From Algoriphagus lutimaris (GTDB lineage: Bacteria > Bacteroidota > Bacteroidia > Cytophagales > Cyclobacteriaceae): 64,000 nucleotides of DNA. The position numbers were made by a program, and so were the translations under genes. The number at the start of each line of letters is the position of its first letter. Position 1 is the stretch's first letter. Location: contig NZ_JAFIDJ010000004.1 in the NCBI RefSeq assembly GCF_017051705.1, forward strand, positions 62,001 to 126,000. The letters run 5' to 3'. Below, piece after piece: positions 13,579 to 18,733 of the stretch. The notes under the pieces were generated by a model. The model saw only the letters and a list, made by a program, of their open reading frames with translations. It searched no databases and was not told where the DNA came from.

Positions 13579-14973
13579 TTAGGTCAGAATGGTTTTGGCT
13601 GAAAGTATAGCATCCAGCTTTTTACTAAAAAGCAAGATTAAAACGCCTCCTACAGCCGCAATCGCAGCATGCATTAACCAGAACTCTGCCGGACTCATGC
13701 TTTCATAAATTCCTCCAAGCCATCCTACCACAAGATTTGCGACAAAAACTGATATATATATAATTCCCATCATGGTGGAGTTGAACCGAGCTGGAGCTCC
13801 CCTAGAAACAATTGCCAATAAGGTTGGCAACTGATACATAAAACCTACACCCATACCAAATGCGCAAAGGACTGGCCAGATCAGATGAACCTGTCCATCC
13901 CCTGCGAAGAAAATACCAAGCAAAAGTGCGGAATGACTGGCCACCGCGATCCATGCCCCAGTTCCAATTTTTTGTAATTCATTAGGTTCGCTGCCTCGAG
14001 AAGCCTGCCATTTCCAAATTATAAAAAGCAGTGGGACGGCTAGTACAGAAGCAATAGAATCTACTGACTGAAACCATGGAACGGGAATATTAAAACCTCC
14101 TACGCTCAAATCAACGTTTTCCTGAATCCAAATTTTAAAAACATTAAAAAGTTGATAATAGCTTGCCGATTGGAAAATGGTAATGATAATAACCACAAGG
14201 GATGCTATCACCTTTCGTTTTTCTTCAGGAGCCAAACTGGATTTATCCAGATTAGAATGAGAAACTTTGGCAGGAAGGTATCGATAGCCATAAAGATATG
14301 TCAACAAACCAATTACCATAAATACCCCAGCGATTCCAAAGCCATAATGCCAACCATAGGCTTGGGCAAGATAGCCGCATAATAATGGGCCGAAGATCGC
14401 ACCAATATTTATAGCTGTGCTGAAAATGACAAAGCCTCGAGTTCGCCGAACTTCATCACCAGCAGGATATAAAGCACCTACCTGTGCTGCGATGTTTCCT
14501 TTGAGAAAACCAGATCCGATAATCAAAAGTAATAAGGCTAGAAGAAAGGTCTGATCAAAAGCCATGACGATATGACCTGCAGTCATTAATAGAGCCCCAA
14601 TCACCACTGCATTTCTTTGACCTGTCCAGCGATCCGCGATCAGTCCTCCAAAAACCGGCGTGAAATAAACAAAGCCAGAATACAATCCAAAGATCAGAGA
14701 AGATATTGCAAGAGTTGAAAGTGGCCCAGTTATGGACTCAATAAGATTTCTAAATCCTTCAAAACCAGCGATATGCTCGACATGACCAGGTAAAAGTAAT
14801 TGGTTGACCATGTAAAGCACCAACAAAGCCGTCATTCCATAAAATGAAAATCGTTCCCAAGCTTCCGTGAAAGCCAAGTAGAAAAGCCCTTTGGGATGGC
14901 CAAAAAAATTCTGCTCCGTAATGGAAGCAGTCTTACTGGTACCTTCTATAGGTTTGCCTTGATTTTCATTCAT
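13579..14973 (-). CDS. POT/PTR family proton-coupled peptide transporter
   Basis: A 464-residue membrane protein with about 12-14 helices. The N-terminal part FFGHPKGLFYLAFTEAWERFSFYGM holds the POT-family ExxER motif (E37, E40, R41) that couples protons to peptide binding. Later features fit MFS topology (TPVFGGLIADRWTGQR for the loop 2-3 motif). It imports di- and tripeptides in characterised relatives. It is convergent with the phosphoesterase gene, with only 19 bases between stops and no clear terminator there. On its other side lies the immune operon. Family call strong; some family members carry nitrate or other substrates, not expected here. Confidence 0.88.
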   Translation of the reverse strand: MNENQGKPIEGTSKTASITEQNFFGHPKGLFYLAFTEAWERFSFYGMTALLVLYMVNQLLLPGHVEHIAGFEGFRNLIESITGPLSTLAISSLIFGLYSGFVYFTPVFGGLIADRWTGQRNAVVIGALLMTAGHIVMAFDQTFLLALLLLIIGSGFLKGNIAAQVGALYPAGDEVRRTRGFVIFSTAINIGAIFGPLLCGYLAQAYGWHYGFGIAGVFMVIGLLTYLYGYRYLPAKVSHSNLDKSSLAPEEKRKVIASLVVIIITIFQSASYYQLFNVFKIWIQENVDLSVGGFNIPVPWFQSVDSIASVLAVPLLFIIWKWQASRGSEPNELQKIGTGAWIAVASHSALLLGIFFAGDGQVHLIWPVLCAFGMGVGFMYQLPTLLAIVSRGAPARFNSTMMGIIYISVFVANLVVGWLGGIYESMSPAEFWLMHAAIAAVGGVLILLFSKKLDAILSAKTILT

Positions 14974-15244: not shown

Positions 15245-15285
15245 GACTTTTTCAGTAGCGTATCTTCAATTAATAAAAATTTTAG

Positions 15286-16620
15286 ATGGATAAAGAATAT
15301 ATATCCCGTATAGTCAAGAAAATTGCTGAAGAAAAATGCCTGGTTATTTTAGGACCTGAGCTACTCTATGAAAACGGCGAGAGCACCAATAGTAAGCTGG
15401 GAAAAGAGCTTCATTCTACCCATGGAGATCAGGTAAAGTATTATCCCGACGATGAGATGTTTAAGTTTGACAACTCACTTCCCATTGTAGTGATTGAAGA
15501 TGATATTCAGGATTTTTATAATCAATTAGAGCCCAATGAACTCTATAAAAAAATTGCAGATATCCCCTTTGCCACCATCATCAACACTGCTCCGGATAAA
15601 ACACTAAACAAAGCCTTTGAAGCTAAAAATATCCCATTTGATTATGATTATTATCGTAAAGGTGAAGCGCAAAAGGAATATGAAAGAACTAACAAAACAC
15701 TGATCTATAATATTTTTGGAGATTACTCAGACATCAATTCCCTCATATTGACTTTTGACGATCTGTTTGACTACCTCTTTAGTATTATGGGGGATTTTGA
15801 ACTGAATATCAAAAGTGAGTTACGAAGAGCAACTTCCGTCCTTTTTATAGGATTTGATTTTGATAAATGGTATTTCAAATTATTGCTTCGGCTGATCAAA
15901 ATCAATGAAAATAAGTTGCTCCACTCCCATGACATACATCAAGAGAATAGTAAGAATTTTTATTCAGAGGAGTTTAAGGTCACATTTTTTGGAAGTAATT
16001 CCGCAGAGGAAATTATCATCGAAATCCACAATCAGGCTTTAGAAAAAGGGCTAATCATTGCAAAACCAGAAATATTTGTATCCTATGCCTGGGGAGGAGA
16101 AAGCGAAGAGATTGTCGATAAATTGGATACCGTTCTTCAAAATAATAATCTAAAACTTACCAGAGATAAACGCGATCTAGCCTATCAGGAACGAATCAGT
16201 TTTTTTATGGATCAAATAGGAAAAGGAAAGGGAATTGTGGTGGTGATCAGCGAAAAGTATTTAAAGTCCCCCTATTGCATGTACGAACTCCTGGAAATCT
16301 ATCAAAACAAAGACTTCGAATCGAGAATAATCCCAATCGTTCTTTCTGATTCTAAGATATACGAAACTGATTCCCTTTTGGCCTATCAGGAATTTTGGAT
16401 TGAAGAGAAGAATAAATTAGATCAAAAAATAAAAGAAAACGGTGGTGATGCAATCGCTGTAATTGGAGAGGAATACAAGTTATTCAAACGGGTGGTAGAC
16501 AACTGGGGGGATCTGATGACAATTCTAAAAGATATCAACTCACTTTCTACTGAAGAGCATCTTAAATCCGAATTCGCCGGAATAATAAAAACACTCAAGG
16601 AAAAGGTACAGCCTAATTAA
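15286..16620 (+). CDS. SIR2-like/TIR fusion protein, probable NAD-consuming immune effector
   Basis: This 444-residue cytoplasmic protein has two halves. Residues 5-255 follow the SIR2_2-type layout: KCLVILGPELL where the nucleotide loop would be, FATIINTAPDKTLNKAF (T-x-N-x-D-like), LIYNIFGDYSDINSLILT..DLFDYL and SVLFIGFDFDKWYFKLLL. The usual catalytic H-G of this family reads F-G (F144), and the GAGxS loop is lost, so this half is probably a binding or assembly domain. Residues 261-440 form a TIR domain: PEIFVSYAWGGESEEIVDKL, VVVISEKYLKSPYCMYELLEI with the expected catalytic glutamate E334, and a long C-terminal part. TIR domains of bacterial defence hydrolyse or cyclise NAD. The STAND NTPase gene starts 4 bases later, so the two are surely one operon. 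Domain calls are by eye. Confidence 0.8.
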   Translation: MDKEYISRIVKKIAEEKCLVILGPELLYENGESTNSKLGKELHSTHGDQVKYYPDDEMFKFDNSLPIVVIEDDIQDFYNQLEPNELYKKIADIPFATIINTAPDKTLNKAFEAKNIPFDYDYYRKGEAQKEYERTNKTLIYNIFGDYSDINSLILTFDDLFDYLFSIMGDFELNIKSELRRATSVLFIGFDFDKWYFKLLLRLIKINENKLLHSHDIHQENSKNFYSEEFKVTFFGSNSAEEIIIEIHNQALEKGLIIAKPEIFVSYAWGGESEEIVDKLDTVLQNNNLKLTRDKRDLAYQERISFFMDQIGKGKGIVVVISEKYLKSPYCMYELLEIYQNKDFESRIIPIVLSDSKIYETDSLLAYQEFWIEEKNKLDQKIKENGGDAIAVIGEEYKLFKRVVDNWGDLMTILKDINSLSTEEHLKSEFAGIIKTLKEKVQPN

Positions 16621-16624
16621 TCAA

Positions 16625-18733
16625 ATGGAAAAGCATTACAGATACCCAGGTACCAGACCTTTCCAAGAAGATGACCGCAATTTATTTTTCGGTCGAAATG
16701 AGGATATAAAAAAACTGACAGAACTTATTGTGCTCGAAAAGATGGTCGTGCTTTTCAGCAAATCAGGTTTTGGAAAATCCTCTTTGCTCAATGCAGGGGT
16801 AATTCCAAGGCTGAAAGAAGTAGAAAATTTTCAAACCTTAAACATAAGATTCAATGATCCAGAACGAAATCCTGTAGAATTACTGAGTTTCCATCTTGAA
16901 AACAAAAAAGGGCAAAACACCTTTCTGGATTCAAAATTCAATATTCTGGATGAGCTGCCGGATGACATTTCGGCGAAACTCTGGTACTACGCAAAGTCTA
17001 TCCAAATAGCCCAAAGAGATTCTATACCAATGGTCCTGATTTTCGATCAATTTGAGGAACTTTTTAATTATTCTCCCTCTCAGGTAAAAGACTTTGCCAG
17101 CGAGCTGGCCACATTGCTCAACCCAAATCTTCTTGTTTCTATCCGAAGCTTATTCAAACAAAAAATCGCTGCCTCCCGTGACTACTTTACCAAAGAGGAA
17201 ACTGATCTTTTACTGGAGCCCCTCAATCTGAAAGTGGTTTTTTCCCTTCGAAGCGATCGAATCAGTCTTCTTAATCAACTGAAAGATTCCATACCGGCTG
17301 TTTTTAAGAAAACTTATGAACTTCAGTCACTAAATGAAGCTCAAGCTAGAGAAGCACTCTTGGAACCGGCAGGAAAAGCAGGGGATTATGCCTCGCCCCA
17401 ATTCTACTTTTCTAAGGATGCCCAAGACCGTATTCTAAATAGCCTGATAGACAAAGAAAAAAAACGAATCGAGACCTTTCAACTTCAACTCATCTGTCAG
17501 CATGCGGAGGAAAAAATAATTCAGAAACAAAAGGACCATCCAAATTCCACCCATCTTGAATTGACTGCTGAGGAGCTGGGTAAACCAGAAGATCTTTTCG
17601 AGGAACATTATAATACAATCATTGGCAGTCTTCCTGAAGAATCCCAACATAAAGCCCGAATTCTGATTGAAGACAAATTAATCATAGGAGGCAATCGGGT
17701 TCCGCTTCCAGAATCTGTGATTATTACCGAGTACCAAATCCCAGAAGAGCTATTAAAGACCTTGGTCGATAAGCGATTGCTTCGATCAGAACCCAATACG
17801 GTGGGAGGAACCAGCTTTGAATTAAGTCATGATACTTTAGTCGATCCTATTCAGAAAACTGCAAAGATAAGAAGGGAAGAAGAAGCTAGAAAACAAGCTG
17901 AAATTGAAAGATTTGAAAAAGCAAAAATTAGAAGCAACCGTATAATTAAGGCTTTATTAGTAATTTCTATTTCCGGTCTTGTCTTAGCTGTATTTTTAGG
18001 GTATCAAGCTTTTTCCGCAAGTAATTTAGCTAATGCACAAAGAATTGAAGCGGAAACTCAAAGAATTGAAGCGGAAAAACAGAAAGAAATAGCCGAAGCT
18101 TCCAGAGAAGAGGCAATCCGAATCAAGCAGAGGGCAGATTTAAATAGGGAAATAGCAATTACCCAAAAAATGCTTGCAGATTCAGTAATTACTGAAACTA
18201 GAAGACAATTTGCCAATTACAAAGCTTTACTTCTAAAATCAACAGCGATAAATTTAATGGCAAAGAGTAAAAATACTGAGGCATTAAGAGTAGCAGAGGC
18301 AGCCTATGCTTCTGCTCTTCAAGCTAATCCTGAGATAAAGGAGGTTCTTTCAAATTTTTTACTTGCATCTTTTTTCTCTAACTACCTATCTCAGATTTTA
18401 AAATTTAATCAAAATACAGGGGACATCTTCTTAGCCTTCTCTTCAGATGGAAAATCTTTACTCGCCGGAAATGATGAAAATACAGAAATCCTTTGGAATC
18501 TGAATGGAAAGCAAAGCCAGACCCTTCAGGAACATGCTGACTCGGTTTCCTTTATCTCATTTACCTCTGACGGAACAGCTGTCCTTACCGGAAGTGGAGA
18601 TAGGACCGCTATTTTCATGAAAACAGCTTCAGGGATTTATGATTGGCTTCAAAGCCCAGAATGTCAAATCCGACAACTCACTGAAAAAGAAAAAAAGGAA
18701 TATTGGATAATTGTTGAAGAGGAAAAGAACTGA
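16625..18733 (+). CDS. STAND NTPase (nSTAND1-like) with membrane helix, coiled coil and short WD40 tail
   Basis: A 702-residue protein. YRYPGTRPFQEDDRNLFFGR (6-24) is the opening typical of nSTAND1 proteins. The P-loop is SKSGFGKSS (45-53, first glycine replaced by serine), Walker B is MVLIFDQFEELF (136-147), a sensor arginine region is FSLRSDR (206-212) and the domain ends with ELSHDTLVDPI (399-409). Next come a single membrane helix (about 439-461), a charged coiled coil (about 465-530), a helical stretch (530-595) and only about two WD40 blades (GDIFLAFSSDGKSLLAG, VSFISFTSDGTAVLTGSGD) before a final WLQSPECQIRQLTEKEKKEY segment. STAND proteins oligomerise on sensing a trigger; here the likely output is the SIR2-TIR partner just upstream. 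The blade count is far below a closed propeller. Confidence 0.82.
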   Translation: MEKHYRYPGTRPFQEDDRNLFFGRNEDIKKLTELIVLEKMVVLFSKSGFGKSSLLNAGVIPRLKEVENFQTLNIRFNDPERNPVELLSFHLENKKGQNTFLDSKFNILDELPDDISAKLWYYAKSIQIAQRDSIPMVLIFDQFEELFNYSPSQVKDFASELATLLNPNLLVSIRSLFKQKIAASRDYFTKEETDLLLEPLNLKVVFSLRSDRISLLNQLKDSIPAVFKKTYELQSLNEAQAREALLEPAGKAGDYASPQFYFSKDAQDRILNSLIDKEKKRIETFQLQLICQHAEEKIIQKQKDHPNSTHLELTAEELGKPEDLFEEHYNTIIGSLPEESQHKARILIEDKLIIGGNRVPLPESVIITEYQIPEELLKTLVDKRLLRSEPNTVGGTSFELSHDTLVDPIQKTAKIRREEEARKQAEIERFEKAKIRSNRIIKALLVISISGLVLAVFLGYQAFSASNLANAQRIEAETQRIEAEKQKEIAEASREEAIRIKQRADLNREIAITQKMLADSVITETRRQFANYKALLLKSTAINLMAKSKNTEALRVAEAAYASALQANPEIKEVLSNFLLASFFSNYLSQILKFNQNTGDIFLAFSSDGKSLLAGNDENTEILWNLNGKQSQTLQEHADSVSFISFTSDGTAVLTGSGDRTAIFMKTASGIYDWLQSPECQIRQLTEKEKKEYWIIVEEEKN
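18038..18077 (+). repeat. 21-bp direct repeat in the STAND coiled coil
   Basis: Two copies of CAAAGAATTGAAGCGGAAA lie 21 bases apart (18038 and 18059) and encode the repeated heptad QRIEAE[TK]. They are identical at DNA level over 19 bases, suggesting a recent in-frame duplication. Confidence 0.7.

Follow-up and report, generated by a model that had tools for sequence, protein, structure and literature searches.

What is the role of a protein that joins a SIR2-like module to a TIR domain, when the next gene encodes a STAND nucleoside triphosphatase (NTPase) with a predicted membrane helix? The question is raised by two genes in a 64,000-nucleotide stretch of the 4.7 Mb genome of Algoriphagus lutimaris (contig NZ_JAFIDJ010000004.1, positions 62,001 to 126,000), which we will call the window. 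Coordinates below are positions in the window, and both genes and all of their features lie on its + strand. Gene A (15286..16620) encodes a protein of 444 amino acids, in which Pfam identifies SIR2_2 at residues 97-210 and TIR_2 at residues 263-371, both exceeding the cut-off. Gene B (16625..18733) begins after a gap of 4 bases and encodes a protein of 702 amino acids, with an nSTAND1 NTPase (residues 7-421; 131.5 bits, with a cut-off of 27.1), a membrane helix, and a short WD40 tail near the C-terminal end. The open reading frames (ORFs), Pfam, and hydropathy confirm the two-gene arrangement given in a preliminary description of this DNA.

Our preferred explanation, which we hold with moderate confidence, is that A and B are the two parts of a split NLR-like receptor anchored in the membrane, in which a SIR2 module that has lost its active site (a "dead" SIR2) couples the STAND switch to swappable effectors. 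The parts are of known kinds. In the open-access literature that we searched, where "nSTAND1" is mentioned in two papers, we found neither the phrase "SIR2-TIR" nor a dead SIR2 acting as a natural coupling adaptor.

Loss of the SIR2 active site

The SIR2-like module of A spans residues 1-258 (15286..16059). Where the module profile has GAGxS, the window copy has LGPELL (hence GP); NTAPD stands in place of TTNxD, and YNIFGD in place of the HG motif. The catalytic Asn has become A102 and the catalytic His has become F144. An AlphaFold2 model of the module matches the SIR2 domains of DSR2, KomC, ThsA, and Avs5, and the SIR2 fold is kept. Because the catalytic residues are lost, the SIR2 half seems to fit the role of an adaptor better than that of a second enzyme that cuts nicotinamide adenine dinucleotide (NAD), or NADase. 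The motif tables led us to drop the reading of A as a double NADase.

Nine copies of the same kind as that of the window went into our profile of the SIR2 module, which therefore favors such copies. Across sampled Bacteroidota genomes there were 35 hits: 29 distinct hits from the family sample (16/391 genomes) and the phylum sample (13/395 genomes), both of which include the window's genome, plus six new hits from the class sample (8/395 genomes with hits, at a stricter E-value). Among the 35, 24 adjoin an nSTAND1 gene, 10 do not, and one ends at a contig end. The preliminary description treated the two genes as a system, and they are indeed conserved together in other genomes. Other searches gave three further loci: L022 and the plasmid copy L070, which are both STAND-linked, and L023. 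(L numbers are our labels for loci.)

The motif comparison covered 36 copies, with L023 and L034 (broken or cut) excluded from the counts. Twenty-four of these copies are STAND-linked and carry a second module (22 profile hits and two from the other searches). All 24 have another residue in place of the catalytic His: F in 16, Y in 4, and M, V, C, or G in one each, so that none has His or Asn at this position. The catalytic Asn is lost in 20 of the 23 copies that are readable there. Among the remaining 12 copies, Asn is kept in 12/12 and His in 11/12, with Asn at the His position in the last (L091). The six class-sample hits served as a fresh test: 6/6 are STAND-linked, and the catalytic His is missing from 6/6, one of which (L145) is a fragment.

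Ten of the 12 intact-site copies do not adjoin an nSTAND1 gene. L061 and L063 encode an intact SIR2 alone (302 and 300 amino acids) adjoining an nSTAND1 gene; this looks like an older arrangement, with SIR2 itself as the effector. Profiles for TIR, EAD11, and CHAT had no match to the 12 copies at E 0.01 (best 0.035), in what is a weak test: the degenerate TIR of L030 scored only 0.016, and the longer copies may hold other domains. The L091 gene (L091:6105-9266) encodes a large SIR2 protein that resembles an Avs5 variant, with NG instead of HG.

In a phylogenetic tree of the module, 18 dead copies form a single clade (97/98), from which the seven intact copies in the tree are separate. The loss of SIR2 catalysis probably happened once. 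The retention of the dead module through changes of its fused partner is the informative point.

For Avs5, it is reported that GAGxS and TTNxD typify sirtuins, that the N110A mutation abolishes immunity, and that His or Asn is needed at the HG position (PMC12931631). It is very improbable that the module has kept an enzymatic activity despite its unusual residues, which would make A a double NADase: the SIR2 fold is retained, Avs5 functions with Asn replacing the catalytic His (PMC12931631), and the TTNxD Asn is retained in 3/23 readable copies, but the 24 copies have F, Y, M, V, C, or G at the His position, the window copy has lost GAGxS and TTNxD as well, and Ala or Gln at the Avs5 site abolished protection (PMC12931631).

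The effector slot

The TIR domain of A (residues 263-371; 16072..16398; TIR_2, E = 2.9e-13) has a putative catalytic Glu, E334, which aligns with the Glu that is retained in 13 of 14 aligned TIR copies. It is followed by a helical extension to the C-terminus (residues 372-444; 16399..16617), as judged from the secondary structure of the AlphaFold2 model and from matches to homologs. Four other TIR proteins match A over residues ~258-443, with 38-44% identity. With this Glu, the domain has the sequence features of the TIR-domain NADases. It is likely the enzyme of A, as the preliminary description held, and would be expected to destroy NAD.

The second module is not always TIR. Among the 24 copies, it is TIR in 15, EAD11 (an effector-associated domain, EAD) in 7, CHAT in one, and a cyclase in one. 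Three of these assignments are below the Pfam cut-off: CHAT in L028 (19.8 vs 24 bits), TIR in L030 (25.5 vs 28), and EAD11 in L144 (22 vs 26). In L142, an adenylate/guanylate cyclase is N-terminal to the dead SIR2 (4.8e-12), and there is a faint EAD11-like end (0.02). At this locus (L142:5201-9440), the STAND gene that accompanies the cyclase-dead-SIR2 gene is read as two ORFs, with LysM at its end.

According to one proposal, EADs link effectors with core proteins through homotypic binding (PMC7159879). In L060, the gene adjoining the dead-SIR2-EAD11 gene encodes an EAD11-CHAT protein (1.1e-17 and 5.7e-10), and the dead SIR2 would therefore carry a socket for a protease. L060 has matching EADs on its core and effector proteins, as in EAD-coupled conflict systems, and the window pair does not. 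In the genome of the window we found no EAD11; other EADs were looked for in A and B only, and none is there. The genome with L059 has no EAD11 that we could find besides the one at L059 itself. The genes for EAD11-CHAT, dead-SIR2-EAD11, and nSTAND1 with a transmembrane helix and LRR are consecutive in L060 (L060:5230-11276). Another genome, G860, has 33 EAD11 matches, which suggests a large effector network.

In L028, the gene upstream of the dead-SIR2-CHAT gene matches only gasdermins in the PDB (4/4 hits at E <=10, best 1.7e-4). Bacterial gasdermins are known to pair with caspase-like proteases. L028 is like this pairing, while the window pair differs in having TIR. The operon (L028:4954-10340) comprises the gasdermin, the dead-SIR2-CHAT protein, and a STAND-TPR protein, and it is possible that it is a pyroptosis-like system wired via the same adaptor. 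We also suspected a gasdermin upstream of L059, and the search gave no support for this.

Within the dead copies, those with TIR, CHAT, and EAD11 are intermixed in a supported clade of 10 rows (98/97). The module also co-varies with the NTPase that accompanies it: pairwise distances for the two are correlated, with r of 0.89 for 20 pairs and 0.55 for the 17 that remain when near-copies are removed, and 0/20,000 permutations gave as high a correlation.

These exchanges bear on another possibility, that the dead SIR2 is a regulator that binds a ligand (NAD+, ADP-ribose, or the product of TIR) rather than a docking part. The Rossmann-like fold is retained, and nucleotide signaling between SIR2 and TIR proteins is known from Thoeris. 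However, GAGxS and TTNxD, which contact NAD, are lost in most copies. Also, the module stays with STAND when the effector becomes CHAT or EAD11, and NAD sensing would be of no clear use there. We consider a ligand-binding role improbable.

The STAND protein and its sensor slot

The NTPase of B (residues 7-421; 16643..17887; Pfam, 7.9e-38) contains the Walker A motif SGFGKSS (47-53) and the Walker B-like motif FDQFEE (140-145). In the 15 rows of our NTPase alignment A5, G48, G50, K51, S53, D141, E144, and E145 are invariant. With a domain above the curated cut-off and invariant GKS and DQxEE, B belongs to the nSTAND1 group of STAND proteins.

A predicted transmembrane helix (residues 440-458; 17942..17998) follows the NTPase. 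Of 25 B proteins analyzed for hydropathy, 23 (18/20 and 5/5) have a hydrophobic helix at this place. In the window copy, there are 5 lysines or arginines in the 12 residues before the helix and none after. Across the family, these residues are more frequent in the 12 residues before the helix than after it in 14 of the 16 proteins tested (Wilcoxon p = 8e-4; L057 and L058, with several helices, were left out, and L065 is a tie). Given this excess, we predict that the NTPase is cytosolic and the C-terminus periplasmic. The preliminary description had B as membrane-anchored; a helix is indeed predicted, and the charge bias points to a periplasmic sensor, not just an anchor.

The predicted periplasmic part is diverse. 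It ends with OmpA in L141 (1.2e-10) and with LysM in L142 (8.1e-16), and both of these families are known to bind the cell wall. Other B proteins end with WD40, TPR, LRR, CarboxypepD_reg with TonB_C, or sequence that is unrecognized. In four loci (L024, L029, L070, and L143), a short STAND gene (550-580 amino acids) is followed by a separate gene for a propeller or LRR protein, whose start resembles a Sec signal peptide in 4/4 cases, as judged by eye only. One STAND protein (L058:9530-13903) has additional hydrophobic helices within its NTPase region, and CarboxypepD_reg/TonB_C is near its end.

A close relative shows the exchange of the sensor within a pair. Protein A of the window is 89% identical to its counterpart in Aquiflexum sp. 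TKW24L, and the DNA of the two pairs is 83.7% identical over 15270-17864 (blastn). The identity ends at 17864, just before the membrane helix, so the effector and the switch are common to the two genomes and the sensor is not. The sensor that goes with the Aquiflexum pair is a propeller that looks exported. A TIR-like gene (below the Pfam cut-off) overlaps a second nSTAND1 gene (L024:329-3258) some 5 kb upstream of that pair.

In the window copy, the helix is followed by a linker predicted to be periplasmic and coiled-coil or helical (residues 459-593; 17999..18403; helices in the AlphaFold2 model, with low confidence past residue 494) and by two WD40 blades (residues ~594-668; 18404..18628; Pfam and matches to WD40 proteins in the PDB). 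These are too few to close a propeller in one chain. Relatives of the tail are found in 6/295 genomes; five are besides the window's own, and those five match the WD40 part only.

Because the sensor has only two blades, the window copy may be contracted; it may instead depend on oligomerization, or the WD40 repeat may have been collapsed in the assembly. On the first of these alternatives, the window copy would be a decaying or contracted remnant that no longer senses. The STAND protein of L140 (1512 amino acids) carries a long WD40 array at the same position, after a similar-looking linker (with the blades counted by a rough pattern), and the window tail has no confident fold. On the other hand, both ORFs are intact, the NTPase and TIR motifs are retained, and A is close to the Aquiflexum copy. 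Also, two-blade pieces could combine in an oligomer, as in the solved 9-bladed propeller that is built of three 3-bladed fragments (6r5z). We think that a remnant is possible, yet unlikely, and it would be compatible with our receptor model for the family as a whole.

Proposed mechanism, related systems, and genomic context

In the split-receptor model, B would be the switch, with a cytosolic nSTAND1 NTPase, one membrane helix, and a periplasmic C-terminal sensor. A would be the effector: its dead SIR2 would dock onto or co-oligomerize with the NTPase, and the fused TIR would be the enzyme. The trigger would be an event at the envelope, most likely phage entry or the resulting damage. On sensing it, B would oligomerize, which would gather the SIR2 modules and bring the TIR domains together. 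The clustered TIR domains would then consume NAD+ or make an ADP-ribose signal, leading to a growth stop or cell death, and in this way the pair would act in defense. The sequences themselves establish the pairing, the lost SIR2 residues, the retained TIR Glu, the co-variation of the SIR2 module with the NTPase, and the exchange of effectors and sensors; the membrane topology is predicted, and docking, oligomerization, the trigger, the NAD chemistry, and the role in defense belong to the model.

More tentatively, we propose that Bacteroidota have a family of NLR-like receptors that span the membrane, monitor the periplasm, and signal inward, with the dead sirtuin as a universal socket for TIR, for CHAT (accompanied by gasdermin or not), for networks of EAD11, and for cyclases. 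This would be an enzyme turned into a scaffold adaptor, akin to the death domains of animals. If these ideas are true, then STAND immunity in bacteria can monitor what lies beyond the inner membrane, and an enzyme that cuts NAD became an adaptor that decouples sensing from killing. The Aquiflexum comparison, with 83.7% identical DNA up to the change point and a different sensor beyond it, would be a testable case of the separate evolution of effector and sensor, and TIR, caspase-like/gasdermin, and EAD systems would be linked through one shared part.

Several observations weigh against the split-receptor model. First, the dead copies are one clade, so the 24/24 loss of His does not represent 24 independent losses, and the tree tool flagged long branches (including L060, L059, and L063), which leaves details of the tree unsure. 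The co-variation of the SIR2 module and the NTPase may be explained by joint inheritance alone. The catalytic Asn is kept in L070, L140, and L143, and the fused TIR of L030 is without its Glu, with a separate TIR gene three genes upstream. Second, the B proteins of L028 and L029 have no membrane helix at the threshold used (2/25), and the charge bias is reversed in L059. The model of B has a predicted local distance difference test (pLDDT) score below 50 from residue 494, so the modeled sensor is unreliable, and the window copy may be non-working. Third, in PADLOC, B had no match up to E 1 and A had weak matches only (best 6.7e-7, to PDC-S66 at residues 249-351), phage records held no copy, and 53 pattern matches in viral contigs included 0 relatives.

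The neighboring genes do not clearly point to defense. The preliminary description looked to other defense genes nearby, and these are not clearly enriched. We compared 106 of 111 neighbor proteins to PADLOC at a threshold of 1e-10 (omitting five of L058, which is beside the near-copy L057). They match 50 families, and among the 25 listed, mad2 is found in two proteins and the other 24 in one each. The 40 ordinary genes of the window match one family, again mad2, in one protein.

An alternative is a system that responds to envelope damage, bacterial rivals, or predators by suicide or a stress response, instead of conferring antiphage immunity. Such a role would fit the predicted periplasmic sensors with OmpA or LysM, the patchy distribution, and the unclear defense-gene context. 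In contrast, TIR, caspase-like, and EAD modules whose parts are exchanged typify predicted bacterial conflict systems (PMC7159879, PMC8195603). We view the stress-response explanation as possible, yet unlikely.

The receptor that we propose can be compared to several known systems. Like A and B, Thoeris has SIR2 and TIR domains in one system, and A resembles ThsA both by sequence (1.4e-4) and by fold. In Thoeris, however, the sensor is a TIR protein, the effector is a different protein with SIR2, and a nucleotide signal joins them. Thoeris is not known to have a STAND partner. We rejected membership in Thoeris for A and B, with SIR2 and TIR in one chain, nSTAND1 as the partner, and a SIR2 that is not intact (A102, F144). 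Nor did A or B match pAgo or APAZ (Pfam and PADLOC), and we rejected membership in the short-Argonaute systems. The preliminary description's view that the build, one SIR2-TIR chain plus nSTAND1, differs from both types of system therefore stands; taken as a whole, that description is partly supported: the effector/STAND pair holds, and the SIR2 half, which its fusion reading would allow to be a second NADase, is more likely an adaptor.

Avs5 is a single SIR2-STAND chain (9jap) whose SIR2 is the active NADase (PMC12931631). Unlike Avs5, the window has two genes, the SIR2 site is lost, the likely enzyme is TIR, and a membrane crossing is predicted for B. We rejected membership in Avs5/AVAST as well: nSTAND1 starts at residue 7 of B, which leaves no room for an effector domain at the N-terminus, and A has NTAPD and FG for TTNxD and HG/NG. 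When we searched for structures similar to B with Foldseek, Avs structures were not among the 50 matches listed, which excludes nothing.

Further related systems are the EAD-coupled STAND and ternary conflict systems (Kaur et al. 2020, 2021; PMC7159879, PMC8195603). They share swappable effectors, coupling adaptors, and a STAND core with our model; some of their parts are near the membrane or cell wall, and nSTAND1 is named in PMC8195603. They have no SIR2 adaptor in the available text of these papers: "SIR2" occurs 0 times in the main text of PMC7159879 and once, as an effector, in PMC8195603. STAND systems with swapped effectors, some of them near the membrane, have been described (PMC7159879, PMC8195603, PMC10907252). 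The same papers include iSTAND systems with OmpA after a transmembrane segment and one STAND target with a predicted periplasmic sensor. There are also direct fusions of TIR and nSTAND1, such as L027, whose TIR is 38% identical over residues 258-442 of A and which has nSTAND1 in the same chain. Compared to the window pair, L027 replaces the SIR2 module by a covalent link, and its sensor is ankyrin.

Carriage of the module is sparse: 16/391 family genomes have any profile hit, and nine of these are STAND-linked. One plasmid, Haliscomenobacter pHALHY02, carries the SIR2 half. The direct neighbors of the window pair are a transporter and an oxidoreductase. We compared this site to four relatives from the same genus with the closest downstream gene (a flavin adenine dinucleotide (FAD) oxidoreductase, 74-92%), taking 15 kb from each. 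A, B, and the PTR2 transporter were absent from the 15 kb of all four. In L120 and L123, the metallophosphoesterase that flanks the window's stretch on the other side was not found in the 15 kb taken. In L121 and L122, the metallophosphoesterase and the oxidoreductase directly adjoin; in the window they are ~5.2 kb apart, with PTR2, A, and B in between. The PTR2 transporter gene (13579-14973) is thus inside the same stretch that these relatives are without. Elsewhere, the genome of the window encodes an nSTAND1-pYEATS protein (L042:6356-8332) and a TIR-WD40 fusion (L041:6318-8408).

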